Shown: positions 26,131-44,646 of the stretch, piece after piece
Numbering within the stretch: the first letter of the stretch is position 1
Layout of the letters: every line of letters begins with the position of its first letter
NCBI RefSeq assembly: GCF_026239675.1
Contig: NZ_JAPIVQ010000004.1
Coordinates: 310,001 to 374,000 of the forward strand
Source: Pedobacter sp. PLR
Lineage (GTDB): Bacteria > Bacteroidota > Bacteroidia > Sphingobacteriales > Sphingobacteriaceae
DNA length: 64,000 bases
Direction of reading: 5' to 3'
Made by a program: the position numbers and the translations under genes
The notes under the pieces: model-generated
Database searches by the model: none
What the model was told of the DNA's origin: nothing
Seen by the model: the letters and a program-made list of their open reading frames with translations, nothing else

Positions 26131-26724
26131 ATGCGAGCAAAATATATCATTTCCGACCAGGATCTTCAGGCTAAATTAATGGCCGGGGAGGAGTCTGCTT
26201 TTTCGGAACTTTATGACCGTTATAACGATGCGCTTGCTGCTTATATTAAGCGGTTTGTGCATTCTTCAGCTTTGGCGGAAGACCTCAGTCAGGAGGTTTT
26301 TATAAAGATCTGGCAGTATAAATCGAAACTTAATGAGGTCAGGTCATTTAAAGCTTACCTGTTTATCATGGCCAGAAACCATACACTCAATAGCCTTAAA
26401 AAGGCAATGAGGTCTGATGTGGCCATGGCCGAAGTGCTCAGTAGCTTCGTGGAACAAAGAAATGATACGGAAGAAGAGCTGTTGAGTAAGGAATATCTGC
26501 AGTATCTGGAGAAAGCTTTGTCGGAATTACCGGTAAGGACCAGGGAGATTTTTAAACTTTGTCGCCAGGAAGGAAAAAGTTATGATGAGGTTGCCTGTGC
26601 CCTTGGGATTTCCAGAAATGCAGTGAAAAATCACATGGTCGGCTCCATGAAAATATTAAGTGCTTCCGTGAAAAAAGACCTTGGGATATCCCTAAGCATA
26701 CTTCTGACTGTTTTCCTGAAATAA
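26131..26724 (+). CDS. ECF RNA polymerase sigma factor (FecI-like)
   Basis: A 197-residue sigma-70 family protein of the ECF type. Region 2 is FSELYDRYNDALAAYIKRF with LAEDLSQEVFIKIWQYK (residues ~25-70), and region 4 is LSELPVRTREIFKLCRQ with SYDEVACALGISRNAVKNHM (~130-175). It lies 72 bp upstream of a fecR gene and then susC. In Bacteroidota this arrangement carries a surface signal: substrate binding at the STN-bearing SusC is passed to FecR, which releases the sigma factor. The start at ATG 26131 is well placed. Confidence 0.93.
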   Translation: MRAKYIISDQDLQAKLMAGEESAFSELYDRYNDALAAYIKRFVHSSALAEDLSQEVFIKIWQYKSKLNEVRSFKAYLFIMARNHTLNSLKKAMRSDVAMAEVLSSFVEQRNDTEEELLSKEYLQYLEKALSELPVRTREIFKLCRQEGKSYDEVACALGISRNAVKNHMVGSMKILSASVKKDLGISLSILLTVFLK

Positions 26725-26796
26725 TTAAAAAAATAAATCATTTTCAGCTACCCTGGTACCCCTCGAATATTGTCTTAATATTTGAACGGACATCCT

Positions 26797-27918
26797 ATGG
26801 AAGAGAATAATTTTTATGAAGCCCTTGTACAGCGTTATCTGAAAAATCAGTTGACCGATCAGGAGCTTGAACTTTTTGCCGAACTGGTAAGAACCGGCAA
26901 ACTGGACGATCAATTGTTTGAAGCCTGGAATGCGGATATCGACATTACAGCCGAAGATGAACTGGATTTTAACCGTACCCAAAAAGTAAGGTTTTTATGG
27001 CCTAAAGCGGTCGCAGCAGCGGCAGTTTTAATCATGCTCTCTTTTGCCGGATACTTCTATTATCAAAAGTATTCATCCGCAACTCCTGTGGAGCTTACTG
27101 CAAATCTTCATGACGCGGATCCTGGTGGAAATAAGGCTACCCTGACCTTAGCCGATGGTTCAAAAATATCGCTGACGGATGCCAATAATGGCGAACTGGC
27201 CAAACAAAGTGGGGTGAGGATTTCAAAAAGTAAAAACGGGGAACTGGTCTATTCGGTGATTGCAACCGATACCAAACTGCCTGTTTTTAATACGATTAGC
27301 ACGCCAAGAGGTGGGGTATACCAGGTGAATCTTCCGGATGGCACAAAGGTATGGCTCAACGCGGCATCCTCCATAAAATTTCCCACCACATTTGCTCATC
27401 TGAAGGAGCGGAAAGTGGAGCTAGAAGGAGAGGCCTATTTCGAAGTCGCAAAAAACAAGAAACTTCCTTTTATCGTATCCACAAGCGGTCAGCAGCTCAA
27501 AGTGCTGGGTACGCATTTTAATGTCAATGCTTATGATGATGAAGATGAGGTGAAAACGACACTCCTTGAGGGAAGCCTGAAAGTTTTTGCCGCAAATTCG
27601 ATTTTACTGAAACCCGGGCAGCAGGCCCATGTGAATAGAAAGGGATCGCGGAATGTTCAGCTGAGCCCCGCAAATATAGCACAGGTAATGGCCTGGAAGA
27701 ATGGGTTCTTCCATTTTGAAAAAGATAACCTTCATGCGGTGATGCGACAATTATCGCGCTGGTATGATGTGGAAGTAGTTTATGAAGTTGACCGCAACGA
27801 TGATGAGTTTATGGGTGACATTCCCAGAGGAATCAAGCTATCTGAAGTCCTCAAAATGTTGGCTTTTGAAGGAACACAATTTAAGATTGACGGCCACAAA
27901 CTCATCGTCAAAAAATAA
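26797..27918 (+). CDS. FecR-family anti-sigma factor
   Basis: A 373-residue inner-membrane protein. The cytoplasmic N-terminal part binds sigma, one membrane helix (AVAAAAVLIMLSFAGYFYY) lies near residues 70-90, and the periplasmic part has the FecR signature TPRGGVYQVNLPDGTKVWLN with RKVELEGEAYFEVAK and a C-terminal DUF4974-like module (NLHAVMRQLSRWYDVEVVYE). The reported frame opens at TTG 26782, but ATG 26797 (MEENNFYEALV) is the natural start. It sits between the ECF sigma gene and susC, whose STN domain is its expected partner. Confidence 0.93.
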   Translation: MEENNFYEALVQRYLKNQLTDQELELFAELVRTGKLDDQLFEAWNADIDITAEDELDFNRTQKVRFLWPKAVAAAAVLIMLSFAGYFYYQKYSSATPVELTANLHDADPGGNKATLTLADGSKISLTDANNGELAKQSGVRISKSKNGELVYSVIATDTKLPVFNTISTPRGGVYQVNLPDGTKVWLNAASSIKFPTTFAHLKERKVELEGEAYFEVAKNKKLPFIVSTSGQQLKVLGTHFNVNAYDDEDEVKTTLLEGSLKVFAANSILLKPGQQAHVNRKGSRNVQLSPANIAQVMAWKNGFFHFEKDNLHAVMRQLSRWYDVEVVYEVDRNDDEFMGDIPRGIKLSEVLKMLAFEGTQFKIDGHKLIVKK

Positions 27919-28002: not shown

Positions 28003-28032
28003 AACAGGACCCTGCTCGAACAGGGCCCTGTT
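28003..28032 (+). promoter_or_regulatory. Strong GC-rich hairpin in the susC leader
   Basis: AACAGGACCCTG (28003-28014) pairs with CAGGGCCCTGTT (28021-28032) at 11 of 12 positions around a 6-nt loop. It lies about 100 bp before susC, has no T-run after it, and lies inside a possible 21-codon frame (27992-28057). It may regulate or stabilise the susC message, or mark the end of the fecR transcript. Confidence 0.45.
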
Positions 28033-28128
28033 GCCCCCATCCGATCATATCAGATAGGAACATCGTTCCGGTTGACCTCAAAAAAAACTTATTGGATAAT
28101 TAATGAATAAACCAAAACATTCAAAAAT

Positions 28129-31100
28129 ATGAAATTAAACTCATGTAGTAAAGTCCCTTTTATGAGGCGGCTTTGCTCAAACCAGACTTTATTGGCCATG
28201 AAACTGACCGTAATTTTAATCTTCTTCAGCTGCCTTCAGGTATCTGCAGATGGGTTCTCCCAAAAAATTACGCTTTCAAAAAGAAACACCACATTCAACG
28301 CAATTTTTGAAAGCATTAAAAAACAAAGTGGTTATACTTTCTTTTACAATAATAGACTGATCAAACAGGAAGGCCTGATTAGTGTTGAACTGGCAGATGT
28401 AAGCCTGGACGATGCATTAACACAGATCTTCAGGAACCGTCCATATTCTTATATGATCCTCAATAAAACGGTGGTGATTAAAAAGAAAGCCATGGAATTG
28501 GTTAGGATTGCTCCTTTAACTCCCGGAGCTGCGGTTGCAATGCTGCAGATCAAAGGAAAAGTAGTGGATACAGAAGGAAATCCTTTACCTGGTGCTTCAA
28601 TTATTGTGAAAGGGACCAAAGAAGGTGCTTCTTCGAGTACCTCCGGTGATTTCCTGATCAATGCGAAAGCAGGAGATGTATTGGTGGTCAGGTACCTCGG
28701 CTATGCCACAAGGGAAATCACAGTGACCTCCGGTACTTCGGTAATGACAGTGGTACTGGAAGCGCAAAAACAAGACCTTTCTGAGGTTGTCGTGACCGCT
28801 TTAGGTGTAAAACGTGCTGAGAAATCATTGGGTTATGCGGTTCAAAAGATTGCAGGTGATAAAGTGCAGACCGTGAAAGGTGTTGACCTTGGAACTTCCT
28901 TAACAGGACAGGTTGCAGGTTTGGTGGTTAAAAACTCCACAGAATTTAATGCCAGGCCAACACTGCAACTTAGAGGCGAAGGTGTTTTATTGGTCATCGA
29001 TGGGGTCCCTTATGGGAACATGACGCTTCGTGACGTTCCTGCTGATGATATTGAAAGCATGGATTTGTTAAAAGGTTCTACTGCTTCCGCTTTATATGGC
29101 TCACGTGCCGACGGTGGGGTTTTATTGATTACGACCAAAAAGGGTGCTGCGGGTAAAGGTTTTGCCGTTGACATCAATAGCAATACCATGTTTCAGCTGG
29201 GGTATCTGGCCGTTCCGGAAGTACAGAGTTCTTATGGCCGCGGACAAAATGGGGTGATCGACAATGATTACGTTTGGGGTCCAAAGTTAGATGTAGGTAA
29301 CACTGCCAGAGACTGGAATCCGGTGACCAAACAGTTCGAGGATAATCGTCCATTGGTTTCTGTAGGAAAGGACAACCTGAAGAATTTTATGAATACGGGT
29401 ATCATCACCAATAATAACATTTCCATTGCCCAGACCGGTGAAAATGGAAGTTTCAGGATTGGCTTAAACCACATTTATAATAAAGGACAGTTTCCAAATC
29501 AGAAGCTGAACATGTTTAACCTAACTTCCGGAGGGGAGATCAGGGTCAATGATAAATTTAAAATTGAAAGTCATTTTGGTCTGAGTAGGCGTAACGCTCC
29601 GCAAATATGGGGTGGTGGTTATGACTTACAGGGATACCTTTACCAATTGGTGATGTGGACTGGTACGGAGTACGATATCCGCGATTATAAAGATTATTGG
29701 GTGGTTCCAAATAAAACGCAAAACTGGATGTATACCAACTGGTATGACAATCCTTATCTGATTGCAAATGAAAAGTTAAATGGGAAAACGGAGAATACGG
29801 TTAATGCAAACGTAACTGCAAATTATAAGTTTAATGAAGATTTTAACCTGATGTTGCGTTTGGGTTATGACAACTATAACAACACAGAAACCATGCGTAA
29901 TCCTACGGCGAACATCTACTCTACCAGAGGTGGATGGAATGCAAGAGGGATGTATGGGATTAATAATACCTCCGGATATAGTACCAATGATGACCTGATT
30001 TTAACCTATAAAAAGAAACTGAACAAATGGTCATTTGATGGATTGGCAGGTGGAACCATTTATTATTATGCAGATCAGGGGTTGAGATCGACTACCAAAA
30101 ATGGCTTGATCTCTCCAACCTTCTTTTCATTGGCAGGTTCTATTGAACCACCAACAGTTGCGCCATACCATAAAGCCAGACAAATCAATAGTCTTTACGG
30201 ACGTGCTTCCATTGGTTGGAATGATGCGATATTCTTAGATGTGACCGGTAGAAATGACTGGAATTCGGCACAACCGAAATCGTCGAGAGACTATTTTTAT
30301 CCTTCTATCGGTTCCAGTGTAGTCCTTTCTGAATTGATGAAATTCCCGGCAGTAGTAGATATGTTTAAACTGCGCGGGTCATGGACGATCTTTAAAAATG
30401 CATTCGACCCTTATGCTATTAATAATGTGTATAGCACAGGTACTGCGGTATGGAATACGTTAAACTCCGGTAGTTATCCTAATTATCTGTTGGGTGAAGG
30501 CTTGTTGCCGAGTTCGCAGCGTACCTGGGAAGTTGGTGCTGTAGGTTACCTGTTTAAAAAACGCCTGCATTTCGATGTTGCCTATTTTAACAAGTATTAT
30601 TATAACCGTCAAACAGATTTGGCAGGAGGAAGTAATACTGCTTTTTTACCTAATTCAAGTGGTTTCAGCATGGCAATTGTCAATACGAAAGAAACTTTTG
30701 AACGTCGTGGTGTTGAGATTACGGTAGATGGATCGGTGATTAAAGGCAGAGATTTCGAATGGTATGCAACGATGAACTGGGCACAACAACACCGCTATTA
30801 TGTTGATTTGGATCCTTTATATTCTCCGGACGACCTATGGACTAAAAAAGGAGAAAGACTGGATACTTATAAAGCGGCTTATTGGCTGACAGATCCTCAG
30901 GGCAATATCATCTACAATAACGGTTCTCCGGTAAGAAGTGATTACAGTAAGAAATATGGCTATGGTGAACCTGATTTTAGCTTCGGCTTTATCAATAGTT
31001 TCAGGTATAAAAACTGGAACATGAATGTAAATATTGATGGTCGTATTGGCGGTCTGATGTACAATTATATGTATGATAAGATGTGGGATACAGGTACAAA

Positions 31101-31530
31101 CCCTGATTCTGATAATCAGTACCGCTATGATCAGGTGGTAAACGGCAAGAATAATTATGTGGGTCAAGGAGTTAAAGTGATCTCAGGAGCGGTAGTTTTT
31201 GATAAGTACGGCCAGGTGATCAGCGATACCCGTCAGTATGCCCCTAATGATGTCCAGGTAGGCTACCAGGATCATGCACAGAAATTCAGAGGTGGTGATA
31301 TGGGGATTCAAAATGAGTCTTTTGTGAAACTTCGTGAACTGTCACTGGGCTATAGTTTCGCACCAAAATTGATCAGCAAATTAGGGCTAAAGAGCGCCTC
31401 GTTCTCTGTTACAGGTCAAAACTTGTGGATGTGGACCAACTTTAAATACTCAGATCCTGATGTGGATACCGAGAATCTGAATTCACCATCACAACGTATG
31501 TTGGGTTTCAATTTTAAAGTAGGCTTCTAA
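28129..31530 (+). CDS. SusC/RagA-type TonB-dependent outer membrane transporter with STN domain
   Basis: 1133 residues. After a signal sequence (cleavage near residue 40) come an STN domain (TTFNAIFESIKKQSGYTFFY to KTVVIKK, ~55-120), a carboxypeptidase-regulatory-like domain (KGKVVDTEGNPLPGASIIVK, ~140-210), a plug (QDLSEVVVTALGVKRAEKSL to ALYGSRADGGVLLITTKKG) and a 22-strand barrel ending LGFNFKVGF. The STN domain signals to FecR. The plug looks shorter than usual between GQVAGLVVKNSTEFNARPTL and LRGEGVLLVIDGVPYG, where SusC proteins normally have a longer SIRG loop. It imports its substrate with the SusD lid encoded next; the following genes suggest an amine-containing substrate. Confidence 0.95.
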   Translation: MKLNSCSKVPFMRRLCSNQTLLAMKLTVILIFFSCLQVSADGFSQKITLSKRNTTFNAIFESIKKQSGYTFFYNNRLIKQEGLISVELADVSLDDALTQIFRNRPYSYMILNKTVVIKKKAMELVRIAPLTPGAAVAMLQIKGKVVDTEGNPLPGASIIVKGTKEGASSSTSGDFLINAKAGDVLVVRYLGYATREITVTSGTSVMTVVLEAQKQDLSEVVVTALGVKRAEKSLGYAVQKIAGDKVQTVKGVDLGTSLTGQVAGLVVKNSTEFNARPTLQLRGEGVLLVIDGVPYGNMTLRDVPADDIESMDLLKGSTASALYGSRADGGVLLITTKKGAAGKGFAVDINSNTMFQLGYLAVPEVQSSYGRGQNGVIDNDYVWGPKLDVGNTARDWNPVTKQFEDNRPLVSVGKDNLKNFMNTGIITNNNISIAQTGENGSFRIGLNHIYNKGQFPNQKLNMFNLTSGGEIRVNDKFKIESHFGLSRRNAPQIWGGGYDLQGYLYQLVMWTGTEYDIRDYKDYWVVPNKTQNWMYTNWYDNPYLIANEKLNGKTENTVNANVTANYKFNEDFNLMLRLGYDNYNNTETMRNPTANIYSTRGGWNARGMYGINNTSGYSTNDDLILTYKKKLNKWSFDGLAGGTIYYYADQGLRSTTKNGLISPTFFSLAGSIEPPTVAPYHKARQINSLYGRASIGWNDAIFLDVTGRNDWNSAQPKSSRDYFYPSIGSSVVLSELMKFPAVVDMFKLRGSWTIFKNAFDPYAINNVYSTGTAVWNTLNSGSYPNYLLGEGLLPSSQRTWEVGAVGYLFKKRLHFDVAYFNKYYYNRQTDLAGGSNTAFLPNSSGFSMAIVNTKETFERRGVEITVDGSVIKGRDFEWYATMNWAQQHRYYVDLDPLYSPDDLWTKKGERLDTYKAAYWLTDPQGNIIYNNGSPVRSDYSKKYGYGEPDFSFGFINSFRYKNWNMNVNIDGRIGGLMYNYMYDKMWDTGTNPDSDNQYRYDQVVNGKNNYVGQGVKVISGAVVFDKYGQVISDTRQYAPNDVQVGYQDHAQKFRGGDMGIQNESFVKLRELSLGYSFAPKLISKLGLKSASFSVTGQNLWMWTNFKYSDPDVDTENLNSPSQRMLGFNFKVGF

Positions 31531-31548
31531 CCATTAAATAAAATTCAT

Positions 31549-33111
31549 ATGAAAACTATAGTTTTAAAATATATAGCAATTTTGCCGGTGTTGGCAATGA
31601 TGAGTGCTGGTTGTCAGAAGTTTGAAGATATCAATTCGAATCCGGACAGAACAGCAGAAGTAAGTTCTTCTATCCTGGCTACAGGTATGATTCTGAACAT
31701 TACCAGAACTGAAATTTCTGCACAGAAAGCGTTTATTCAGCCTTTTCTATTGGGTAAATACATCACCTGGGGTGAAGGTCAGGAAAACCTCCAGTATAAT
31801 AAACTAGGCAGAGCAGATTTTGGCCGTCTGACGGTATTGCGTAATATTCCGCCAATGGAAAAATATGCGACAACCGAAGGTTTGAAGAAATCTTATCAGG
31901 CGCTGGGACATTTTATCAGGGCATGGCAGTTTTTTCATGCCAGTATGCAGGTAGGTGATATGCCCTATACAGACGCCATTAAAGGCGAAAGTGAAAAGGT
32001 GTTACAGCCAAAGTATGATACGCAAAAGACGGTGTTTTTAGGTATTTTAAATGAGCTGGATCAGGCCAATCAGTTGTTTTCTGAAGGTGCGAATTTTGAT
32101 GGCGATCCGATTTATGCCGGTAAGACAGACAGCTGGAGAAGGTTAACCAATAGTTTTGAACTTCATGTACTGATCAATTTGTATAAAAAAACCGCTGATG
32201 CAGATTTAAAAGTAGTGGAACGCTTTAAAGATATCGTTGCCAACCGCCCTTTAATGCGCGATTATAAAGACAACTTTGCGCTGGCTTATAACAATGTTGC
32301 CGGACAAAATTACCCATGGTCTGATGTTCCGGCTGGTTCCGGGAATTCATTCGTGAAGTCTAATTACACCATGCTTTCGAATACTTTATTAGCTCCGATG
32401 AAAGCATTAAAAGATCAACGCTTATTCTATTATGCGAAACCTTCTCCGGTTAAAATTATCGCCGGATTGTTAGCCTCAGATTATAATGCTTATCCGGGTG
32501 TGGATCCTTCCGATGCTTTCTCCAGTCTTCAGACACGCAGGGTAGGAAAAGATTATGCGGATCTGAATAACCGTTATGTGCAGTTGGTCAATGCGGAAGC
32601 GGTTAGTTTGTTCAGTTACTGGGATCTGCAATTTATTTTGGCAGAAGCCAATGTGAGAGGATGGGTTACAGGTGCTGCTGCACAAACGTATTATGCTGCC
32701 GGAATTAGTAGCTCCATGAATTTTGTAGCTGCCAGTACGCCTGATTTGGCCGATTATCACCACAATATGAAAATGGATGCCGCTTACATTAATGCTTTTC
32801 CAGCTGCTGCCGGTGTGGCTTTAGCAGGTACACCAGCGCAACAGATTGAACAGATTATTACACAAAAGTATCTGGCTAATTTCTTACAGGGTGGTAAGTT
32901 TAATGCCTGGATGGAGAACAGAAGGACTGGTTTCCCCGTGTTCACATTAAATAGCAATACCAACTTAAATACGCCGACTACTAATTTCCCGTTACGCTGG
33001 TTGTATCCTGGTAATGAACTGGATTATAATGCAGCCAATGTGTCTGCCGCAATTCAGAATCAATACGGTGGAAATGATGATGTTAATCAGATCATGTGGA
33101 TCTTAAAGTAA
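31549..33111 (+). CDS. SusD/RagB-family surface lipoprotein
   Basis: A 520-residue lipoprotein: signal ending AMMSAGC with the lipidated Cys at position 22, followed by QKFEDINSNPDRTAE, which is typical of the SusD-like family with 'INxNP' after the lipid anchor. The body is helical with TPR-like segments (SYQALGHFIRAWQFFHASMQ) and the C-terminal NFPLRWLYPGNELDYN expected of a SusD fold. It forms the hinged lid over the SusC barrel and captures substrate at the cell surface. It begins 18 bp after susC. Confidence 0.93.
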   Translation: MKTIVLKYIAILPVLAMMSAGCQKFEDINSNPDRTAEVSSSILATGMILNITRTEISAQKAFIQPFLLGKYITWGEGQENLQYNKLGRADFGRLTVLRNIPPMEKYATTEGLKKSYQALGHFIRAWQFFHASMQVGDMPYTDAIKGESEKVLQPKYDTQKTVFLGILNELDQANQLFSEGANFDGDPIYAGKTDSWRRLTNSFELHVLINLYKKTADADLKVVERFKDIVANRPLMRDYKDNFALAYNNVAGQNYPWSDVPAGSGNSFVKSNYTMLSNTLLAPMKALKDQRLFYYAKPSPVKIIAGLLASDYNAYPGVDPSDAFSSLQTRRVGKDYADLNNRYVQLVNAEAVSLFSYWDLQFILAEANVRGWVTGAAAQTYYAAGISSSMNFVAASTPDLADYHHNMKMDAAYINAFPAAAGVALAGTPAQQIEQIITQKYLANFLQGGKFNAWMENRRTGFPVFTLNSNTNLNTPTTNFPLRWLYPGNELDYNAANVSAAIQNQYGGNDDVNQIMWILK

Positions 33112-33164
33112 GATTTAATGTTATATTAGTAATACAGTAATTTCATGTAAATAACTACTAGCCT

Positions 33165-34481
33165 ATGACGCCAACTAAGGGTTTAAAGAAAACACTGACT
33201 CCTTTTATGTTATGGGGTCTTGGTGTAGGTTATGTTATATCAGGCATGTATTTCGGATGGAATCTCGGCCTTGAAAAAGGTGGGACAGGAGGGATGGCGA
33301 TTGCTACCCTTGTCATCATGCTGATGTATATTACGTTTACATTTAGTTACGCAGAATTGGCTTGCGCAATTCCTAAAGCAGGAGGTGTGTTTGATTATGC
33401 AAACAGAGCAATGGGCGAAAATATCGGTTTTATAGCCGGTATTGCCCAAATTGTTGAATTTATATTGGCACCGCCGGCGATTGCATTCGCCATCGGTGCC
33501 TATTTTAATGCTTTCTACCCTCAGGTACCTATTCTCACAAGTGCCATCTCCATCTATTTTATCTTTACCGCACTGAATGTTTATGGCGTGAAGGCTGCCG
33601 CATCTTTTGAGGTGATCATCACCGTTTTCGCGGTTGGTGAATTGCTGTTGTTTTCCGGACTGGCCTTGCCAAAGTTTGAAATGGTGAATCTGACACACCA
33701 TGCTTTGCCTAACGGCTGGAGCGGTGTGTTTGCGGCCATCCCCTTTGCCATCTGGTTTTTTCTTGGGATTGAAGGGATCGCCAATGTGGCCGAGGAGACA
33801 AAGAATCCCCAAAGGGATATCAGCAGGGGCTTTGGATGGGCAATTTTTACACTGGCGATTTTATGTGTCCTGGTTTTTATCGGGGCAACAGGTATTGCCG
33901 GCTGGGAAGCTATCGTTTATAAAAACGGATTGAGCGGAGAGACTTCCGATTCACCGCTCCCGCTGGCATTGGCGAAGATCACAGGGAACAATCATTTGAT
34001 GTATCATTTGCTGATTACAGTTGGCTTATTCGGATTGGTAGCCTCCTTTCATGGCTTGATTCTGGCTGCGGGACGTTCCACTTACGAGATGGGCCGTGTA
34101 CATCATATCCCTTCTTTTTTAGGGAAAATATCTCCGCGTTTTCATACGCCGGCAAATGCCCTGATCGGGAATATGCTGATCGGTATTCTTGCCCTGCTCT
34201 CCGGAAAAACTTCTGAAATTATCATCGTTTCCGTCTTCGGTGCGCTAACGCTTTATATCATTTCCATGATCTCCATCATGATTTTAAGGAAAAGAGAACC
34301 GGAATTGCCACGCCCTTTCCGTTTGCGATTTTACCCTTTGTTTCCAATCATTGCCTTAGTAATAGCCACGATATCCATCATCGCTATGTTTATTTTTAAC
34401 CCTAAACTGGGATTGATCTATTGCTCCATTTTAGTGGTTACCTTTTTATTATACAGGACTATTAAATCGGAAGATAAATGA
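33165..34481 (+). CDS. APC-family permease, ethanolamine type
   Basis: A 438-residue transporter with 12 hydrophobic segments. The N-terminal MLWGLGVGYVISGMYFGWNLG and the following TFSYAELACAIPKAGGVFDY and ANRAMGENIGFIAGIAQIVE closely resemble the ethanolamine permease branch (Eat) of the amino acid-polyamine-organocation family. It would take up an amine across the inner membrane. It follows susD by 53 bp and its stop overlaps the start of the glutamine-synthetase-like gene by 4 bp (ATGA), so transport and the first enzymatic step are translationally coupled. Ethanolamine, alaninol and other small amino alcohols all fit. Confidence 0.82.
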   Translation: MTPTKGLKKTLTPFMLWGLGVGYVISGMYFGWNLGLEKGGTGGMAIATLVIMLMYITFTFSYAELACAIPKAGGVFDYANRAMGENIGFIAGIAQIVEFILAPPAIAFAIGAYFNAFYPQVPILTSAISIYFIFTALNVYGVKAAASFEVIITVFAVGELLLFSGLALPKFEMVNLTHHALPNGWSGVFAAIPFAIWFFLGIEGIANVAEETKNPQRDISRGFGWAIFTLAILCVLVFIGATGIAGWEAIVYKNGLSGETSDSPLPLALAKITGNNHLMYHLLITVGLFGLVASFHGLILAAGRSTYEMGRVHHIPSFLGKISPRFHTPANALIGNMLIGILALLSGKTSEIIIVSVFGALTLYIISMISIMILRKREPELPRPFRLRFYPLFPIIALVIATISIIAMFIFNPKLGLIYCSILVVTFLLYRTIKSEDK

Positions 34482-35836
34482 CAACAGAAGAAATTTTAGC
34501 TTATGTAAAACAACATCCCTCAGGGAAAGTGAAAATAGCCGTTGCGGATATTGATGGGGTTTTAAGGGGTAAATATATTGCAACAGAGAAGTTCCTGTCT
34601 ATTCTGGGAGGGAGGCTCGGCTTTTGCGATGTGACCTTTGGATGGGATATGGGCGATGTGGCCTACGATAATGTCAAATATACCGGATGGCATACCGGTT
34701 ATCCCGATGCGCAGGTGAAATTAGACCTGCAGACTTTTCGTAAGATTCCATGGGAAAATGATGTGCCGTTTTTTTTAGGTGATTTTGTTGATGAACATGG
34801 CAAGGCTTTGTATGCTTGCCCGCGGCAGTTGCTCCATAAGGTGTGTGCTGAGGCAGAAGACATGGGTTTCAAGCCATTTTTTTCTCAGGAATTTGAGTGG
34901 TTCAATTTCGCGGAGACTCCGGAGTCTGTCCATCAAAAGAATTTTCAGCAGCTGCAGCCTTTAACGCCGGGGATGTTCGGGTATTCCATCCTGCGCAGCA
35001 GTCTGAAAAATAGCTATATGAGCGATCTGTTTGAACTCCTGTGCAAATTTGGAATTCCTGTTGAAGGTTTACATACCGAAACGGGGCCCGGTGTTTATGA
35101 GGCAGCGATTAAATATGCAGGAGTAATAGAGGCGGCAGATCAGGCGGTATTGTTTAAAACAGCAGTGAAAGAGATTGCTTATCAGCATGGTATTATGGCC
35201 ACTTTTATGGCTAAAATCAATGAAAATCTGCCGGGTTGCAGTGGTCATGTGCACCAGAGTTTATGGGATAAAGAGGGCAAACATAACCTGTTTTATGAGG
35301 AGCATGAGGCCTCGAATATGAGTACAGTGATGAAGGCATATATTGCCGGACAATTACATTGTCTGCCTTATATCTTGCCCATGATTGCGCCCACAATTAA
35401 TAGTTATAAAAGATTGGTGGAAGGTGCCTGGGCACCGACCACGTTAACCTGGGGAATCGACAATAGAACGGTCGCCTTGAGGGCATTGCCAGGTCATTCA
35501 AAAACCACGCGTTTGGAAACGAGGGTGGTGGGCTCAGATACGAATCCCTACCTGGCGCTATCGGCTTGTCTGGCTGCCGGACTGTACGGGATCAAAAATA
35601 ATCTGGTATTGGATAAAGCCATTACACAAGGAAATGGCTACAAGGATATTTCCAATGGCGTGCTCCCGGGTAGTTTAGCCGAGGCCACAAAGAAGATGAA
35701 GGAATCGCCTTTGGCTGCTACTTTATTCGGTGCTGAGTTTGTAGAACATTTCACATTGACCAGAGAATGGGAATGTAAACAGTATGCGAAGGCCGTGACG
35801 GACTGGGAAATGAAAAGATATTTTGAAATTATTTAA
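34478..35836 (+). CDS. Glutamine-synthetase-like gamma-glutamyl-amine ligase
   Basis: A 452-residue member of the glutamine synthetase fold, about the length of GS I and of PuuA. The active-site landmarks are present: EFEWFNF and ETGPGVYEAAIKYA (metal-binding Glu), GCSGHVHQSL (metal-binding His) and SYKRLVEGAWAPTTLTWGID with RLETRVVGSDTNPY. The N-terminal DMGDVAYD lacks the FDGSS-type ammonia-site loop of true glutamine synthetase, which fits PuuA, GlnA4 or IpuC-like enzymes that ligate glutamate to an amine with ATP. Between the permease and dehydrogenases it probably makes gamma-glutamyl-ethanolamide or a relative. Confidence 0.82.
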   Translation: MTTEEILAYVKQHPSGKVKIAVADIDGVLRGKYIATEKFLSILGGRLGFCDVTFGWDMGDVAYDNVKYTGWHTGYPDAQVKLDLQTFRKIPWENDVPFFLGDFVDEHGKALYACPRQLLHKVCAEAEDMGFKPFFSQEFEWFNFAETPESVHQKNFQQLQPLTPGMFGYSILRSSLKNSYMSDLFELLCKFGIPVEGLHTETGPGVYEAAIKYAGVIEAADQAVLFKTAVKEIAYQHGIMATFMAKINENLPGCSGHVHQSLWDKEGKHNLFYEEHEASNMSTVMKAYIAGQLHCLPYILPMIAPTINSYKRLVEGAWAPTTLTWGIDNRTVALRALPGHSKTTRLETRVVGSDTNPYLALSACLAAGLYGIKNNLVLDKAITQGNGYKDISNGVLPGSLAEATKKMKESPLAATLFGAEFVEHFTLTREWECKQYAKAVTDWEMKRYFEII

Positions 35837-35847
35837 ACCCGCTCACT

Positions 35848-36996
35848 ATGATATTGGATAGAATACATCAGTTTAATTTTCCGACTACGATTCGTTTTGG
35901 TGTTGGTGCGATCAAGGAGTTACCAGGTTATTTAAAAGCCAATGGCTTAAGTCGGCCATTACTGGTGACCGATCCTACGGTAGCTGCCTTGCCTTTTTTT
36001 AGCGCTATAGTTGCAGATCTGGAAGCTCATCATTGCGCTGTAGTGGTTTTCAGTGAGATTCATAAAAATCCGGTGAAGAGTGATGTTTATAAAGGAACGG
36101 AGGTTTGGGACCAGAATTCAAGAGATTGTGTGATCGGAATTGGTGGTGGTGCAGCTTTAGATGTGGCCAGAGCTATCGTTTTACGGGTGAACCATCGGGA
36201 AGATTTATTCAAGTATGATGATTTGATTGGTGGTGATGTGTTTGTAACGAATGAGGTGCCCCATTTTATTACCGTTCCTACGACTTCCGGTACCGGGAGT
36301 GAAGTAGGTAGAAGTGCAATTATTTCTGATGATGAGACGCATCAAAAGAAGATTTTGTTTTCGCCGAAGCTGATGGCTAAAATTGTATTCGCAGACCCTT
36401 TGTTGACGATGGATTTACCGCCACACATTACCGCTGCGACCGGAATGGACGCACTGACTCACAATATGGAAGCTTTCCTCGCCAAAAATTACCATCCTTT
36501 ATGTGATGGAATTGCACTGGAAGGGATTGGCTTGATTAGAGACTCCTTGGTAACTGCCACACTTCAGCCAGATGTGGAGAGTCGCAGTAAAATGTTATTG
36601 GCTTCTATGATGGGTGCCATCGCTTTTCAAAAGGGTTTAGGTGTGGTTCATTCTCTGGCACATCCACTTTCTTCTTTATTAGATACCCATCATGGTTTAG
36701 CGAACGCAGTGAATATTCCCTACGGAATGGCCTTTAATATTGCTGGTTTTGAGGATAGATTTGCCAGGATGGCAAGGGCACTAGGCTTGAAAGAGAAAAC
36801 CGGTGAAGCAGTGGTAAATTACCTTTTTGAACTCAATGCTAAGTTGGGTATTCCCCGTCATTTGAGGGATATTGGGGTTTCAATGGAACATATTGATACC
36901 CTGGCTGATCTCGCTTTTGCAGATTTTGCACACCCAAATAACCCTAAGCCAGTGAGCCGGGAGGATTTTAAAGCCTTGTATTTAAAGGCGCTGTAG
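35848..36996 (+). CDS. Iron-containing alcohol dehydrogenase
   Basis: A 382-residue group III alcohol dehydrogenase. NAD(P)-binding GIGGGAALDVARAI lies near residue 95, PTTSGTGSEVGRSA near 145, and the metal ligands are in GMDALTHNMEAF (Asp/His), HSLAHPL and DTHHGLANA. All four metal-binding residues seem to be present. It should oxidise a primary alcohol to an aldehyde, with the amine group already blocked as a gamma-glutamyl amide if the operon reading is right. It starts 11 bp after the ligase gene. Confidence 0.88.
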   Translation: MILDRIHQFNFPTTIRFGVGAIKELPGYLKANGLSRPLLVTDPTVAALPFFSAIVADLEAHHCAVVVFSEIHKNPVKSDVYKGTEVWDQNSRDCVIGIGGGAALDVARAIVLRVNHREDLFKYDDLIGGDVFVTNEVPHFITVPTTSGTGSEVGRSAIISDDETHQKKILFSPKLMAKIVFADPLLTMDLPPHITAATGMDALTHNMEAFLAKNYHPLCDGIALEGIGLIRDSLVTATLQPDVESRSKMLLASMMGAIAFQKGLGVVHSLAHPLSSLLDTHHGLANAVNIPYGMAFNIAGFEDRFARMARALGLKEKTGEAVVNYLFELNAKLGIPRHLRDIGVSMEHIDTLADLAFADFAHPNNPKPVSREDFKALYLKAL

Positions 36997-37040
36997 GTTT
37001 TATTGTACCAGATTTAGTAATTACAAAAATGATTTGATCC

Positions 37041-37757
37041 ATGCGGAAAAAGATAGGAATTAGCTTTACGGAAGCTGGTTTTCAAAATTATTGGAATTGG
37101 TTTACTGCGGTTGATCTGGGGGAAGATCTGGAATTGCTGGAACTCTCTTTTGAAAAAGGAAACACGGAAGATATTGCGAAATGCGATGGTTTTGTGCTAA
37201 CAGGAGGGATCGATGTGACCCCTGCCATTTCTGGCGGAGCAGAAGATTATCCTTACCGGCCAGCGCAGTTCTCCCCGGAAAGGGATGAATTTGAAAAACA
37301 GATTTATGCCTTTGCAAAAGCAGAACAATTGCCTTTATTGGGCATTTGCAGGGGAATGCAATACATCAATATTCTGGAAGGAGGCGCTGTTTTTGATGAC
37401 ATCGGAGAACCGGAGAATGCAATTCATAAAAAAGGAGCAATAGATAAAGTTCATGAGGTGAAGGTGATTGAAGGCTCTTTATTAGCCGGTATTACCATGG
37501 AGAATAAAGGTATCGTGAACAGTGCGCACCATCAGGCAGTAGACCCGGATCGTCTCGCTGAAAACTTAATGATCAATGCCTATTCGGTTTCAGGAAATGG
37601 CATGGTGGAAGGCTTAGAGTATAAGGATAAAAAGAACCATGGCTTTATGCTTGGGGTACAATGGCATCCGGAAAGAATGGAGGAAAAGGAAATCCAGCCT
37701 TTCTCTCAAAAGATCAAAGAACAATTTATTCAGGAAATAAGAACCCATCGAAAATGA
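37041..37757 (+). CDS. Gamma-glutamyl-amide hydrolase, class I GATase (PuuD-like)
   Basis: A 238-residue class I glutamine amidotransferase-like enzyme of peptidase family C26. The nucleophile elbow is PLLGICRGMQYIN (Cys near residue 101) and the catalytic His-Glu are in VQWHPERM near the C-terminus; FVLTGGIDVTP forms the oxyanion part. Family members (PuuD, IpuF-like) cleave gamma-glutamyl amides. Here it would free the oxidised amine, for example glycine from gamma-glutamyl-glycine, and regenerate glutamate. Its stop overlaps the aldehyde dehydrogenase ATG in an ATGA. Confidence 0.88.
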   Translation: MRKKIGISFTEAGFQNYWNWFTAVDLGEDLELLELSFEKGNTEDIAKCDGFVLTGGIDVTPAISGGAEDYPYRPAQFSPERDEFEKQIYAFAKAEQLPLLGICRGMQYINILEGGAVFDDIGEPENAIHKKGAIDKVHEVKVIEGSLLAGITMENKGIVNSAHHQAVDPDRLAENLMINAYSVSGNGMVEGLEYKDKKNHGFMLGVQWHPERMEEKEIQPFSQKIKEQFIQEIRTHRK

Positions 37758-39118
37758 ACATTATAAATCCAGCTACTGAAGAAATCATTAAGACAGTTCA
37801 GGAAGACAGCCTTGCTTTATTGCATGAAAAATATGCGGTTCTCCGTCAGGCACAAAAAGAATGGGCAAAGAAAAGTTTAGCGGAACGATTGAGTGTTGTA
37901 CAGCGCTTTTTTGACCTGTTAGGGGTAGAAACAGAAGGTTTGGCTGCGGTATTGACTGCTGAAGTGGGGAAACCAATACAGCAGTCGCGGAATGAAATTA
38001 AGGGGGCAAGAACGCGGATTTCCTGGATGATAAATAATGCGGAACGTTATTTATCTGAAGAATTGGTAACGGATACAGCAGCGCTTCAGGAGAAGATTTC
38101 TTACGAGCCTTTAGGTGTGATTTGTAATATTTCTGCCTGGAATTATCCTTATCTGGTAGGCGTAAATGTGTTTGTTCCGGCACTGATTGCCGGAAATGCT
38201 GTGCTGTATAAACCTTCTGAATATGCAACGATAACAGGACTTGAAATTGAAAGGTTATGGGAAAAGTCGGGATTACCCGATGGCATTTTTAAGGTCGCTA
38301 TTGGTGGGAAGGAAACAGGGGAGGCTTTGCTGGATCTTGATTTCGATGGTTACTTTTTTACAGGTTCCTACCGCACCGGAAAATATATTTATGAAAGGGT
38401 AGCTAAGAAAATGGTGCCTTGTCAGCTCGAATTAGGAGGGAAGGATCCGTTATATGTGGCAAATGATGTGCCTGATGTGGCTGCGGTAGCCATAGGGACG
38501 GCGGATGGTGCGTTTTATAATAATGGTCAGAGTTGTTGTGCTGTGGAGCGTATTTATGTTCATGAAGATGTTTATCAAGCTTATGAAACTGCATTTTTGA
38601 AAGAAGTAGAATCCTGGAAAATAGGTTTGCCAACAGAAGAAGTCGTTTACATTGCTGCGTTAACGAGGAAGGAGCAGCTGGATGTGTTAGAGGATCAGGT
38701 ACAGGATGCGTTGTCAAAAGGAGCGATACTGTTGTGCGGAGGGAAAAGAAGGCCGGGGAAGGGCTATTATTTCGAACCAACGGTATTGATCGGGGTAACC
38801 AATGAGATGAAAGTGATGCGGGAAGAAAGTTTCGGTCCGATCATAGGTATCATGAAGGTGAAAGATGATCAGGAAGCGATTGCGCTAATGAAAGACAGTG
38901 ATTATGGTCTGACTGCCGCGGTATATTCTGCTGATGGGGATCGCGCTCAGCGGATTCTTGGCGATATTGATGCCGGTTCCGGATATTGGAATTGTTGTGA
39001 CCGGGTAAGTGCAGGTTTGCCCTGGAGTGGCAGGAAACATTCCGGTTTTGGCGCTACGCTTTCTCATCAGGGATTACGCGCTTTTGTGAAGCCGAAAGCC
39101 TGGCATCTGAGGAAATAA
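37754..39118 (+). CDS. NAD(P)-dependent aldehyde dehydrogenase
   Basis: A 454-residue ALDH superfamily enzyme. SAWNYPYLVGVNVFVPALIA holds the catalytic Asn, LELGGKDPLYV the general-base Glu, and NNGQSCCAVERIYV the catalytic Cys followed by a second Cys; the PSEYATITGL segment lies in the cofactor site. The frame is open to 37661, but the true start is ATG 37754 (MNIINPATEEI), overlapping the stop of the hydrolase gene by 4 bp. It would oxidise gamma-glutamyl-aminoaldehyde to the acid, completing alcohol-to-acid conversion begun by the iron alcohol dehydrogenase. It is the last gene of the operon. Confidence 0.9.
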   Translation: MNIINPATEEIIKTVQEDSLALLHEKYAVLRQAQKEWAKKSLAERLSVVQRFFDLLGVETEGLAAVLTAEVGKPIQQSRNEIKGARTRISWMINNAERYLSEELVTDTAALQEKISYEPLGVICNISAWNYPYLVGVNVFVPALIAGNAVLYKPSEYATITGLEIERLWEKSGLPDGIFKVAIGGKETGEALLDLDFDGYFFTGSYRTGKYIYERVAKKMVPCQLELGGKDPLYVANDVPDVAAVAIGTADGAFYNNGQSCCAVERIYVHEDVYQAYETAFLKEVESWKIGLPTEEVVYIAALTRKEQLDVLEDQVQDALSKGAILLCGGKRRPGKGYYFEPTVLIGVTNEMKVMREESFGPIIGIMKVKDDQEAIALMKDSDYGLTAAVYSADGDRAQRILGDIDAGSGYWNCCDRVSAGLPWSGRKHSGFGATLSHQGLRAFVKPKAWHLRK

Positions 39119-39147
39119 GTTGCCTCCGGTATTTTGAAGGCAACTTA
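39116..39147 (+). terminator. Probable terminator of the amine catabolism operon
   Basis: TAAGTTGCCT (39116-39125, containing the aldehyde dehydrogenase stop codon) pairs perfectly with AGGCAACTTA (39138-39147), loop 12 nt. The following sequence is only moderately T-rich. Confidence 0.5.
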
Positions 39148-39218
39148 ACGTAATTATTTATCTTCTCTGGTAGCCTTGCTTTTTGTGTAGTTTTTCATGC
39201 TGATCCAGGCAGATATGC

Positions 39219-40256
39219 TTAAAGTTTAGCCCTGGTTTCTTTTCTGATGACCGGGGCAATCTGAGTGCCCAGTAATTCAATGGTTTTCAATACCTGTTTG
39301 TGCGAAATAGATCCGGTTACAAGTTGCGCCAGGAATCTCGTGTTTTTGAAAAGTTCATACTGATGCATGATTTTATCAATCGCCTGTTGTGGACTTCCTA
39401 CCACCAATGGCCCATCAGTACGCAGATAATCGAATTGATGTCTGCTCATCGGCGACCATCCTCTGTCTTTACCTACGCGGTTCATCAATTGCTCATAAGA
39501 TGGGTAAAACTCATCGGCAGCCTGTTGTGCGTTTTCTGCTACGTAAAACTGCGAACTAATCGCCAGTTGAAGTTTAGCGGGATCATGTCCGGCTTCCTTC
39601 GCTGATTTACGGTAGAGGTTGATAAATGGTACGAATTGCTCTGGTGGGCTACCCAGGATGGCTACTGCCATAGGAAGGTTCATTTTTCCTGCCCGCTGTG
39701 CCGATGCCGGTGTGCCACCTACGCCGATCCATACCGGTATTGAAGGTTGGATGGGACGTGGATATACGCCTCTGTTTACAATAGAACTGCGGTGCTTTCC
39801 TTTCCAGGTCACGATTTCTTCCTCATTTAGCTGAAGTAATAAGGCTAGCTTTTCCGTGAAAAGTTCATCGTAATCATTCAGGTTATAACCGAATAAGGGG
39901 AATGATTCTGTAAATGATCCTCTACCCGCAATAATTTCAGCCCTTCCGTTGGAGATTAAATCTACGGTAGTAAAGTTCTGAAAAGTCCGTACGGGATCTG
40001 CCGAACTCAATACGGTTACGGAGCTTGATAATTTTATGTTTTTAGTGATGGCCGCTGCCGCAGCCATCATAATCTCAGGAGCAGAAATGACAAAATCGGA
40101 ACGATGATGCTCTCCGAATGCAAAAACGTCGAGACCGACTTCGTCTGCAAGCTTTACTTCTTCTAATAATTCCTGAACCCTTTTATGCGCGTTAACTGCT
40201 TTTCCTGCTACGCGATCAGGTTGTAATTCTCCAAATGTACTGATCCCAATTTCCAT
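39219..40256 (-). CDS. LLM-class flavin-dependent oxidoreductase
   Basis: A 345-residue luciferase-like TIM barrel. It starts MEIGISTFGELQPD, has DVFAFGEHHRSDFVIS near residue 45 and SNGRAEIIAGRGSFTESFPLFG near 105, typical of the alkane monooxygenase-like LLM group, and GGTPASAQRAG near 180. Such proteins use FMNH2 or F420 supplied by a reductase; here FMN is expected. The substrate is unknown. It is a single gene, convergent with the amine operon, in no obvious functional cluster. Confidence 0.85.
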   Translation of the reverse strand: MEIGISTFGELQPDRVAGKAVNAHKRVQELLEEVKLADEVGLDVFAFGEHHRSDFVISAPEIMMAAAAAITKNIKLSSSVTVLSSADPVRTFQNFTTVDLISNGRAEIIAGRGSFTESFPLFGYNLNDYDELFTEKLALLLQLNEEEIVTWKGKHRSSIVNRGVYPRPIQPSIPVWIGVGGTPASAQRAGKMNLPMAVAILGSPPEQFVPFINLYRKSAKEAGHDPAKLQLAISSQFYVAENAQQAADEFYPSYEQLMNRVGKDRGWSPMSRHQFDYLRTDGPLVVGSPQQAIDKIMHQYELFKNTRFLAQLVTGSISHKQVLKTIELLGTQIAPVIRKETRAKL

Positions 40257-40409
40257 GTGTCAATTTTAATGTGCTTTGCTTTTATGATTTTAATGCAGCT
40301 TGCTATTCGGTTTTTAATGCTGGCGTTGTATTTTATTGGTACTGATTTCTCCTACCCTAAGTGATAACCAAGAGGCCTGTTTTTAGTTTTAATTTATACC
40401 CTGATTTTA

Positions 40410-41375
40410 TTATTTGAATTCATTTTCAACACTGGTTCTCAAATCATAAAGTAGCCATTGTTGCTGGTTAATGGTTGCTTTCTCAGCTACCAATAGCTTG
40501 AGGAAGTCCTTAACACCAATCGGTTCATTACCGTTGCCATGAATAAGCACAATACTTCCTGCGTGGCTCTGCTGTCCTTTTGCAAGCCAGGCATCGCTTC
40601 CAATTGGAATAATACCATAGCTGGTCACTTTGTCTACTAACTTTTGATCCGATACCAAACCTGGAAACCTAAAGAATACCGAAGGTAGTAATCCCCTTTC
40701 GATCATGGCCTGTTCCATCCCTAATATTTCAAAATTAAGGTCAGTTCCCGGTTCCATCAGAAAGTTGAGCGCTAACGGAGCTTTTGGATCATAATGATGG
40801 TTATAGGTATGGTTAGTCCAGGTGATACTTAAATCTCCCGACTTTTCAAGTCCCTGTAACCAGGTGATGTCGGCGCTATGGCTTAGCATAAACTTTCCGG
40901 TGAGGGATAAGGCCACAGGAACAGGGCGCTCTTGTTTTTGAAATGCAGCGATCAATGAACTGAAAATACTTCTGTCCAATGGTTTATGGGAAGGGCATAA
41001 ATCTATGGTAAGCGTAATCCCTTTTTCCTTTGGAAAGCCATGTGTAATTCCTGCATCCTGAAGGTTTAGTGATTGTTGTTGCGCCGTTTTAATGGCCTTA
41101 TAATAGGGTGTTTTTTTGAGGTATGTTTCAAATTCTGGAAATGTAACCGGCCTTACTGAAATCTGTTTACTGCTTATTATTTGCGTTTCCAGGGTCTGTG
41201 GATTCACAATGAGGTAGGAGTGCTGACCTGATTCTTCAAATTGTCGTAAGACAAGTATCTTTTTTCCGCCGTAACTGCCGGTTGCAAAGTAAGTTTTGTA
41301 CTGTTTTATTTCTTTTTGAGCCAGAGAAATAAGGCTACAGAACAAGAGTATCAGCGTGACGTATAATTTTATCAT
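40410..41375 (-). CDS. Secreted polysaccharide-deacetylase-like protein, altered metal site
   Basis: A 321-residue protein with a signal peptide (ILLFCSLISLAQ-K, cleavage near 19). A ~110-residue N-terminal part of unknown fold precedes a NodB-type domain. Motif 1 is LTIDLCPSH where active deacetylases have T-F-D-D-G-P: the first Asp (base) remains and the second (metal ligand) is Leu. Motif 2 is intact, HTYNH (the H-x3-H metal site), and FFRFPGLVSD resembles motif 3. It may be a modified enzyme or use its metal differently. It stands alone between the LLM gene and the small genes at 41.5 kb. Confidence 0.7.
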   Translation of the reverse strand: MIKLYVTLILLFCSLISLAQKEIKQYKTYFATGSYGGKKILVLRQFEESGQHSYLIVNPQTLETQIISSKQISVRPVTFPEFETYLKKTPYYKAIKTAQQQSLNLQDAGITHGFPKEKGITLTIDLCPSHKPLDRSIFSSLIAAFQKQERPVPVALSLTGKFMLSHSADITWLQGLEKSGDLSITWTNHTYNHHYDPKAPLALNFLMEPGTDLNFEILGMEQAMIERGLLPSVFFRFPGLVSDQKLVDKVTSYGIIPIGSDAWLAKGQQSHAGSIVLIHGNGNEPIGVKDFLKLLVAEKATINQQQWLLYDLRTSVENEFK

Positions 41376-41490
41376 CTGTTGATGGTATAGAATTATGATT
41401 AAGATAGCGATATTTGCCAGATATCAGGCTTAGCTATGGGAATTTTAACGCCTGTTTTACCAGAACCATTGTCAAACAAAAGAACACATC

Positions 41491-41679
41491 ATGACGGAAA
41501 TTGAATTTTTAGATTATTGCAAAGCCCAGGTTAGCGGGGAACTTAAAGAAGAAGATATTGTATTAATGCTGACTGCCTGGGGGAAAATTAAATATTCTAT
41601 CGGATACAATCAGGCATTGAAAGATAGTGATACTGAGCTGGATAGTTCAGTGAATGATGTTAATCAGGAAGAAGAGTAA
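41491..41679 (+). CDS. Small acidic hypothetical protein
   Basis: 62 residues, starting MTEIEFLDYCKAQVSGEL and ending in an acidic tail (SSVNDVNQEEE). It is predicted mostly helical, soluble, with one Cys. No ribosome binding site is visible, which is usual in this phylum. It is followed after 20 bp by the zinc-ribbon gene. No family recognised. Confidence 0.5.
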   Translation: MTEIEFLDYCKAQVSGELKEEDIVLMLTAWGKIKYSIGYNQALKDSDTELDSSVNDVNQEEE

Positions 41680-41699
41680 ATTCTTAGCATTTCGTAATT

Positions 41700-41978
41700 A
41701 TGATTTTACATCAATCTCTTTTAATTATTGGCACTATTTCTATTGTGAAATTAGTGCTTTATCCAGGTTTAGTGATTGTTATGGTCATTTTCTTCAGGAA
41801 AGCTAATCAGGACAAATCAAAGTTTGGGATAAACCTCAAAAGAGTTTATTGCCCTGTATGTAAAACGAAACAGTCAATAATCAGGATACCTAAGAACAAG
41901 ATGCAAATGCTTTATGGTGGAACTACTTGTCCGAAATGCCAGACTAACCTTGACAAGTATGGGGATATCATATTGTAA
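41700..41978 (+). CDS. Small membrane protein with a zinc-ribbon
   Basis: 92 residues: one hydrophobic helix at ~5-30 (LLIIGTISIVKLVLYPGLVI and on) followed by a soluble tail with two CxxC pairs, YCPVCKTKQS (residues ~51-60) and TTCPKCQTNL (~75-84). The 20-residue spacing fits a zinc-ribbon facing the cytoplasm. No enzymatic function is visible. It lies upstream of the HMA-AraC cluster but lacks the shared promoter motif, so it may not belong to it. Confidence 0.55.
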   Translation: MILHQSLLIIGTISIVKLVLYPGLVIVMVIFFRKANQDKSKFGINLKRVYCPVCKTKQSIIRIPKNKMQMLYGGTTCPKCQTNLDKYGDIIL

Positions 41979-42049
41979 TTCGTACAGTTATTTCCTGTTT
42001 TAACTTTCCAGGGTGTCTGAAGATTAACCGGATTTTCAGGCTGAAATTA

Positions 42050-42105
42050 TATAAGTTTTTTCAGAAATTATGTAGTTTTTGCCCCTTATAAGTAAGCTAT
42101 GTTTG
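42050..42105 (+). promoter_or_regulatory. HMA-AraC-type promoter, site 1 (regulator 1)
   Basis: Half-site TATAA at 42050-42054 and the variant TGTAG at 42071-42075, exactly 21 bp apart, then a perfect -7 box TATGTTTG at 42098-42105. The most divergent of the five sites, yet its geometry is the same. The box ends 6 bp before the ATG of the first regulator. Confidence 0.6.
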
Positions 42106-42111
42106 CTTTAA

Positions 42112-42675: not shown

Positions 42676-42679
42676 ATTC

Positions 42680-42734
42680 TATAAACTATTCCCTAAATAG
42701 TGTAACCTCAATTTTATCCTGTGTTTTATTTTTG
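42680..42734 (+). promoter_or_regulatory. HMA-AraC-type promoter, site 2 (regulator 2)
   Basis: TATAA at 42680-42684 and TGTAA at 42701-42705 (21 bp apart), then TATTTTTG at 42727-42734. Predicted transcription start about 10 nt before ATG 42752. No TTTG at the -33 position. Confidence 0.7.
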
Positions 42735-42751
42735 AGTATAAATTTTTTGTT

Positions 42752-44625: not shown

Positions 44626-44646
44626 TCTATTTCAAATATTAAAGAC

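Follow-up and report, generated by a model that had tools for sequence, protein, structure and literature searches.

Which amine does a Pedobacter process with an operon that joins a glutamine synthetase (GS)-like ligase to a permease and to oxidative enzymes, and from where does this amine come? The operon occupies positions 33165-39118 of a 64,000-nucleotide stretch of the Pedobacter sp. PLR genome (hereafter the window; assembly GCF_026239675.1, contig NZ_JAPIVQ010000004.1, positions 310,001 to 374,000; genome size 5.8 Mb). We propose that it serves ethanolamine use by glutamate capping, with the ethanolamine probably derived from phospholipid headgroups, and we give this explanation a probability of roughly three in four. 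A first-pass annotation had listed five genes in the order permease, GS-like ligase, iron-containing alcohol dehydrogenase (Fe-ADH), class I glutamine amidotransferase (GATase) and aldehyde dehydrogenase (ALDH), with two ATGA overlaps. Profile scans of genes in the window interval 26131-43339 gave the same families in the same order, all on the + strand, and the overlaps lie at 34478-34481 and 37754-37757. The borders of that annotation hold for the five genes but not for the unit, which is larger: a SusC/SusD pair and genes for an extracytoplasmic function (ECF) sigma factor and FecR, located upstream, had been overlooked. The features are:

26131..26724, + strand: ECF-type sigma factor, likely to regulate the SusCD unit (Pfam Sigma70_r2, r4_2)
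26782..27918, + strand: FecR anti-sigma factor (Pfam FecR, FecR_C); the open reading frame starts at TTG and the true start may be slightly later
28129..31530, + strand: SusC-like TonB-dependent outer-membrane transporter (TIGR04056, 497.7 bits, cut-off 368.25), with N-terminal STN, Plug and CarbopepD_reg_2
31549..33111, + strand: SusD-like surface lipoprotein (PF12771)
33165..34481, + strand: predicted ethanolamine permease of the amino acid-polyamine-organocation (APC) family (TIGR00908, 438.8 bits, cut-off 381.75)
34478..35836, + strand: GS-like ligase, predicted to form gamma-glutamyl amines (PF00120)
35848..36996, + strand: Fe-ADH, proposed gamma-glutamyl-ethanolamide dehydrogenase (PF00465/PF25137)
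37041..37757, + strand: class I GATase of the peptidase C26 type, proposed gamma-glutamylglycine hydrolase (PF07722)
37754..39118, + strand: ALDH, proposed gamma-glutamyl-aminoacetaldehyde dehydrogenase (PF00171)

The ALDH gene most likely starts at 37754, rather than at 37661, the mechanical start of its open reading frame. The gap between the end of SusD and the permease measures 53 bp and is free of terminator-like sites on the + strand; in a general scan for promoters and terminators, such sites were no commoner than in shuffled sequences (29 vs 34.5; 13 vs 13.2).

The ligase stays below cut-off for three models: GlnA, type III GS and gamma-glutamylputrescine synthetase. Its alignment to E. 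coli GlnA revealed that the equivalents of six metal-site residues (E129, E131, E212, E220, H269 and E357) are kept, together with the ATP-site residue H271 and the arginines R321, R339, R344 and R359, while E327 is replaced by W, Y179 by F and N264 by P; the D50 column, in which the window ligase has D, is poorly aligned and was counted neither way. Such retention of catalytic residues with loss of ammonium-site residues is consistent with the ligase predicted for ethanolamine gamma-glutamylation. Of the residues key for ammonium, E327 and D50 are not conserved in PauA7 and GlnA4, and Y179 is replaced (PMC6529630).

The cluster also holds both dehydrogenases that an ethanolamine gamma-glutamylation pathway employs, and their active sites are invariant among the relatives aligned, rows shorter than 300 residues being excluded for these two enzymes: D201, H205, H268, H272, H281 and H282 of the Fe-ADH in 113/113 rows (the window and 112 relatives), and E226, C261 and C262 of the ALDH in 106/106 rows (the window and 105 relatives). 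Similarly, C103, H209 and E211 of the GATase are invariant in 105/105 rows (the window and 104 relatives).

Whereas gene order, protein and permease families, catalytic residues, conservation and co-occurrence are read directly from sequences, we infer all reactions and substrates of the following scheme, including the role of SusC and SusD, which would carry a headgroup-derived compound, their putative ligand, over the outer membrane. The permease would bring ethanolamine into the cytoplasm, where the ligase, at the expense of ATP, would join it to the gamma-carboxyl group of glutamate, giving gamma-glutamyl-ethanolamide. The Fe-ADH could then oxidise the alcohol to an aldehyde that lacks a free amine, and the ALDH could convert this aldehyde to gamma-glutamylglycine; by analogy, the two oxidations would yield two NADH. 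Finally, the C26 hydrolase would release glutamate, to be recycled, and glycine, which may enter glycine cleavage via the glycine decarboxylase encoded in the same genome.

How conserved is the operon? At E 1e-60, ligase matches were found in 49/151 genomes of a family sample, 52/395 of a phylum sample and 65/145 of a genus set; the three samples overlap, and the family and phylum counts take in other ligase clades too. The surroundings of 108 matches were fetched and combined with 80 named loci (the best 80 of 579). After removal of 10 loci with an identical ligase stretch, the resulting 188 loci gave 178: 114 of operon type (ligase plus ADH; non-redundant, the window itself left out), 41 of a second ligase clade (clade 2), 13 with the ligase only and 10 distant. 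One locus, L039, stands in the ligase-only class despite adjoining SusCD and e(P4) genes, because its contig stops after the ligase. The genus set has 64 other genomes with the ligase; 25 of them were not fetched, and for these we assume the operon because ligase identity is at least 74%. The 114 operon-type loci include the permease in 102, the GATase in 104 and the ALDH in 107 cases, and all five genes stand together in 89 of the 99 loci with sufficient flank, across several families of the phylum; the association is not due to chance. Named carriers among the best 80 of 579 comprise, among others, Chitinophaga, Solitalea, Parapedobacter, Olivibacter, Niabella, Aquirufa, Cyclobacterium and Ilyomonas, and the closest named ligases of that set belong to Pedobacter polysacchareus (91%) and P. 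gandavensis (90%). Moreover, the GATase and ALDH of six loci (L099, L156, L181, L201, L208 and L215) are fused into a single open frame, 693-695 codons long when counted from the start of the alignment, and L153 shares this arrangement, although its ALDH is broken; this recurrent fusion fits enzymes of consecutive reaction steps. In locus L079, ALDH and SusC each match as two pieces, suggesting frameshifts or sequence errors.

The assignment to ethanolamine draws first on the permease, which exceeds the cut-off of the ethanolamine permease model TIGR00908 and is accordingly predicted to transport this compound. EutB, the ethanolamine ammonia lyase, is encoded in 16/151 genomes of the family sample, and 16/16 of the corresponding EutB regions contain a relative of the window permease, at 43-49% identity; in all three EutB regions listed gene by gene the relative is directly 5' of eutB, and the two EutB-linked permeases scanned reached 504.6 and 508.4 bits for TIGR00908. 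Two further Bacteroidota loci, L116 and L117, have a ligase on the Csal_0679 side of the ligase tree, a short-chain dehydrogenase (SDR), an ALDH and a further gene that looks, by eye, like a GATase; their permeases are 63% identical to that of the window, pass the TIGR00908 cut-off, and are set among the operon permeases by a fork with support 94/90. PuuP and the IpuC-linked permeases stand on very long branches of the same tree.

A second line of evidence is the distribution of EutB. No match to PF06751 (EutB) was found in the window genome, while the E. coli control matched, in agreement with a route that dispenses with ethanolamine ammonia lyase, as the first reading had suggested. Over the genomes searched, 86 distinct ones carry the operon or ligase and 35 carry EutB, with none shared. 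Within the genus, the numbers are 65 and 11 of 145, again with none shared (P ~0.001, uncorrected for kinship); for the family sample alone, the exclusion gives P = 0.10.

The route itself, ethanolamine gamma-glutamylation, is already published for Streptomyces, Phaeobacter and Chromohalobacter. In Streptomyces coelicolor, formation of gamma-glutamyl-ethanolamide by GlnA4 was shown in vitro (PMC6529630); the GlnA4 cluster resembles that of the window in its ALDH and glutamine amidotransferase, and an ethanolamine permease gene occurs in other Streptomyces, but its alcohol-oxidising enzyme is a short-chain dehydrogenase instead of an Fe-ADH (PMC6529630). Loci L116 and L117 have the gene content of this Streptomyces cluster plus the window-like permease (PMC6529630). 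For Chromohalobacter salexigens, the route was proposed with a table giving PF00120, PF00465, PF00171 and PF05013 (PMC9397018). Three of these four enzyme families, namely the ligase, dehydrogenase and ALDH families, are common to the window, whereas the hydrolase there is of the formylglutamate-amidohydrolase type PF05013 and that of the window a PF07722 C26 GATase (PMC9397018). The PF05013 hydrolase is not common to all published forms, since the Streptomyces cluster has a glutamine amidotransferase (PMC6529630). In Phaeobacter MED193, the same steps were proposed, with a single operon made on phosphorylethanolamine and an ethanolamine-binding protein of a tripartite ATP-independent periplasmic (TRAP) transporter, where the window has an APC permease (PMC10132767). 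The window hence differs from the published forms in hydrolase family, transporter, ligase lineage and the SusCD/sigma/FecR unit, a SusCD link being present in some lineages. The literature covered by our search, which lay outside most subscription journals, contained, judged by the results listed, no apparent description of ethanolamine gamma-glutamylation in Bacteroidota.

Does the operon receive its substrate from membrane lipids? The adjacent SusC (TIGR04056) and SusD (PF12771) genes have the composition of a SusCD uptake system. The best SusD paralogue in the window genome is 33% identical, vs 59-65% for the operon-adjoining copies in L038, L039, L043 and L164; the best solved chain is 3mx3, named just as a SusD homologue. 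An ECF sigma factor (66-87% identical) occupies the same position in 13 fetched Pedobacter SusCD loci. In L038, L039 and L043 it is 30-34% identical, and the sigma factor and FecR together 30-39%, so the regulators of these three loci may not be orthologous; L042 retains a SusD remnant of 67 residues. Genes for phospholipase C (PLC) lie next to the operon and share its strand in 7/114 loci, i.e., L035 (genus label as Solitalea longa; PLC with 797 bits for TIGR03396), L038, L041 (Olivibacter sitiensis), L042, L043, L164 and L194 (Cyclobacterium), compared with 0/41 clade-2 loci. Locus L164 (Ilyomonas limi) reads SusC-SusD-PLC-permease-ligase-ADH-GATase-ALDH. An estimate that is rough, since copy counts were entered by hand, placement was modelled simply and one genus supplies three of the five genomes, sets five adjacencies seen against 0.015 expected (28 copies). 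Additionally, L039 and L043 have a gene for an e(P4)-family phosphatase between SusD and the permease. Judging from their families, the PLC and e(P4) enzymes could free ethanolamine from phosphatidylethanolamine.

We tentatively regard the SusCD-linked form as a phospholipid-headgroup utilisation locus, a counterpart of the polysaccharide utilisation loci that would combine PLC/e(P4) cutting, dedicated SusCD import and glutamate capping, although for this extended view we see somewhat less than an even chance. In such a locus, PLC and the e(P4) phosphatase would release the lipid headgroup, SusCD, controlled by the ECF sigma and anti-sigma factors, would import phosphoethanolamine, glycerophosphoethanolamine or a related lipid fragment, and the capping enzymes would make glycine from ethanolamine without ammonia-lyase, B12 or a microcompartment. 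The dedicated SusCD link to ethanolamine catabolism would be its new element. In Flavobacterium, SusCD uptake of lipid headgroups was suggested earlier in the context of phosphate scavenging (PMC8115612); the PusCD of F. johnsoniae resemble the window in that SusCD-like complexes adjoin phosphodiesterase/phosphatase genes, but differ in that phosphate depletion is the inducer, and the main text of PMC8115612 leaves ethanolamine unmentioned.

Several observations weigh against ethanolamine capping or its link to lipids. SusCD adjoins just 16/114 operons, 13 of them within the genus. The two PLC genes over cut-off in the window genome, as well as one weaker match, all lie on other contigs; e(P4) was unmatched in this genome, but the controls were unmatched too, and this result does not establish absence. 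Because the PLC model bears the name phosphocholine-specific, the headgroup could be choline. Furthermore, the operons of L089, L188 and L199, all with sufficient flank, lack the GATase, and a hydrolase would be expected to be encoded elsewhere in these cases; also, in many loci with ligase identity > 60% the hydrolase identity falls to 31-39%. The ligase forms a lineage separate from Csal_0679 (5dm3), outside the clade of 14 rows that contains it (support 100/99), and is 35% identical to a Csal-type ligase of Ruegeria. Among the plasmid relatives listed (30 of 179; surroundings were read for ten), the closest are 44-47% identical and have varied contexts: of the five whose surroundings were read, two adjoin ATP-binding cassette (ABC) transporters annotated spermidine/putrescine, which points to a polyamine role for these two, and three have an ALDH without Fe-ADH. 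Another of the five, on a Legionella lytica plasmid, stands in a row of ligase, ALDH, Fe-ADH and an annotated GMP synthase, the last of which gave no match to the window hydrolase.

The remaining point against is the existence of clade-2 ligases, which are 53-65% identical, possess the same active-site residues and belong to another cluster without ADH or ALDH. In the five clade-2 loci listed gene by gene (L050, L055, L066, L070 and L075), the neighbours are a GS that by eye resembles GlnII, a small protein encoded on the opposite strand, a 344-374 aa protein and a haloacid dehalogenase (HAD) phosphatase; scans of L050 identified the small protein as GGACT and the phosphatase as HAD-IIA and assigned no family to the 344-374 aa protein. 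The ligase and the gene of the latter protein are common to 41 non-redundant loci (e.g., L106-L112, L209, L212-L214 and L216), and 15/30 clade-2 carriers in the family sample have EutB too. The 344-374 aa protein looks kinase-like by eye, with no significant family match. The predicted model of its 351-aa representative has a mean predicted local distance difference test (pLDDT) score of 41.2, and its relatives gave no PDB match and Pfam matches all far under cut-off.

Can the ligase itself name the substrate? We rejected its ancestry as a basis because it falls outside the Csal clade and because PuuA and a few other rows stand on long branches of the tree, from which GlnA4 itself was left out. 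The structure was likewise set aside. In VIA-align, the model (mean pLDDT 81.5) comes closest to 5dm3, titled Csal_0679, at Z 43.3, effectively level with a glutamine synthetase from S. aureus at 42.5 (difference below 1), while Foldseek ranks first the Brucella melitensis glutamine synthetase 11zs; these matches reflect the common fold alone and point to no substrate. A pocket signature comparing 18 operon with 12 clade-2 ligases gave a single fixed difference (C364) and nothing discriminating. The ethanolamine substrate proposed in the first-pass annotation is thus supported by gene context; with a ligase placed outside the lineage of Csal_0679, it gains no backing from ligase ancestry. As for the route laid out there, from ethanolamine through gamma-glutamyl-ethanolamide, the aldehyde and gamma-glutamylglycine to glutamate and glycine, we infer the same, because EutB-linked permease relatives, EutB exclusion, ammonium-site loss, the published pathway and the PLC/e(P4) neighbours support it.

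The alternative that survives best retains the capping chemistry with another amino alcohol as the natural substrate, for instance 1-amino-2-propanol, aminopropanol or alaninol, the last known from the isopropylamine Ipu pathway, and we judge it unlikely. The closest specifically named plasmid ligases among the matches listed are two annotated IpuC (38.6-38.9% identical), that of Paenarthrobacter aurescens TC1 plasmid pTC1 (38.6%) having a GATase and an ALDH nearby; the IpuC group joins the window side of the ligase tree weakly (94/39), and the Fe-ADH matches 4-hydroxybutyrate-dehydrogenase and lactaldehyde-reductase models, all under cut-off. However, the IpuC locus of pTC1 (L226) has beside it genes for a cytochrome P450, a ferredoxin, a ferredoxin reductase and an SDR, with no permease in the stretch read, and its tree-grouped companions L225 and L227 have P450 and ferredoxin as well, two of the three loci having an SDR; no P450/ferredoxin system or SDR occurs among the scanned window genes. 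The permeases of L225 and L227 gave no NCBIfam match at E 1e-60, TIGR00908 included, whereas the family of the window permease, the mutual exclusion with EutB and the neighbouring PLC/e(P4) genes favour ethanolamine. That other amines keep some share of the probability follows from a ligase that is outside the Csal clade and nearer IpuC, and from the varied plasmid contexts.

Far less probable is a polyamine or gamma-aminobutyrate pathway of the Puu type in which the ADH has a side task. The ligase, ALDH and C26 hydrolase are indeed Puu enzyme classes, as known from E. coli, the hydrolase being 33% identical to PuuD over 177 residues, and the spermidine/putrescine-annotated transporters beside two plasmid relatives would suit such a pathway. 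Yet the gamma-glutamylputrescine synthetase model matches the ligase with 184 bits, far under the cut-off of 650, the identity to PuuA is 28.8%, the operon genes include an alcohol dehydrogenase and no FAD-dependent gamma-glutamylputrescine oxidase (PuuB), and the permease passes the ethanolamine model and no putrescine one. Finally, the clade-2 clusters of many Bacteroidota might suggest a nitrogen-scavenging or detoxifying ligase whose neighbours are retained alongside without a common pathway, which is hardly credible given the retention of all five genes across several families and the recurrence of GATase-ALDH fusions.

Downstream of the operon, on the opposite strand, lie a luciferase-like monooxygenase gene (39219-40256) and a gene without Pfam match (40410-41375); among the fetched loci, 5 and 9, respectively, have counterparts 3' of the operon. 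They are followed by tandem short AraC-type regulators (HTH_18; 42112-42675 and 42752-43339), whose N-terminal halves have a Cys motif, metal-binding by eye, and by a gene pair resembling, by eye, resistance-nodulation-division (RND) efflux (43555-47763).

Many membrane lipids carry ethanolamine as their headgroup, so that the turnover of this compound has a bearing on carbon and nitrogen cycling. If ethanolamine capping is indeed the function of the operon, many Bacteroidota would degrade ethanolamine independently of vitamin B12 and of microcompartments, using a route already known in other phyla, and a SusCD pair would gain a concrete, testable ligand class, as suggested for the phosphate-responsive SusCD of Flavobacterium (PMC8115612). 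Between related species, the capping route and the ammonia-lyase route seem to substitute for each other.

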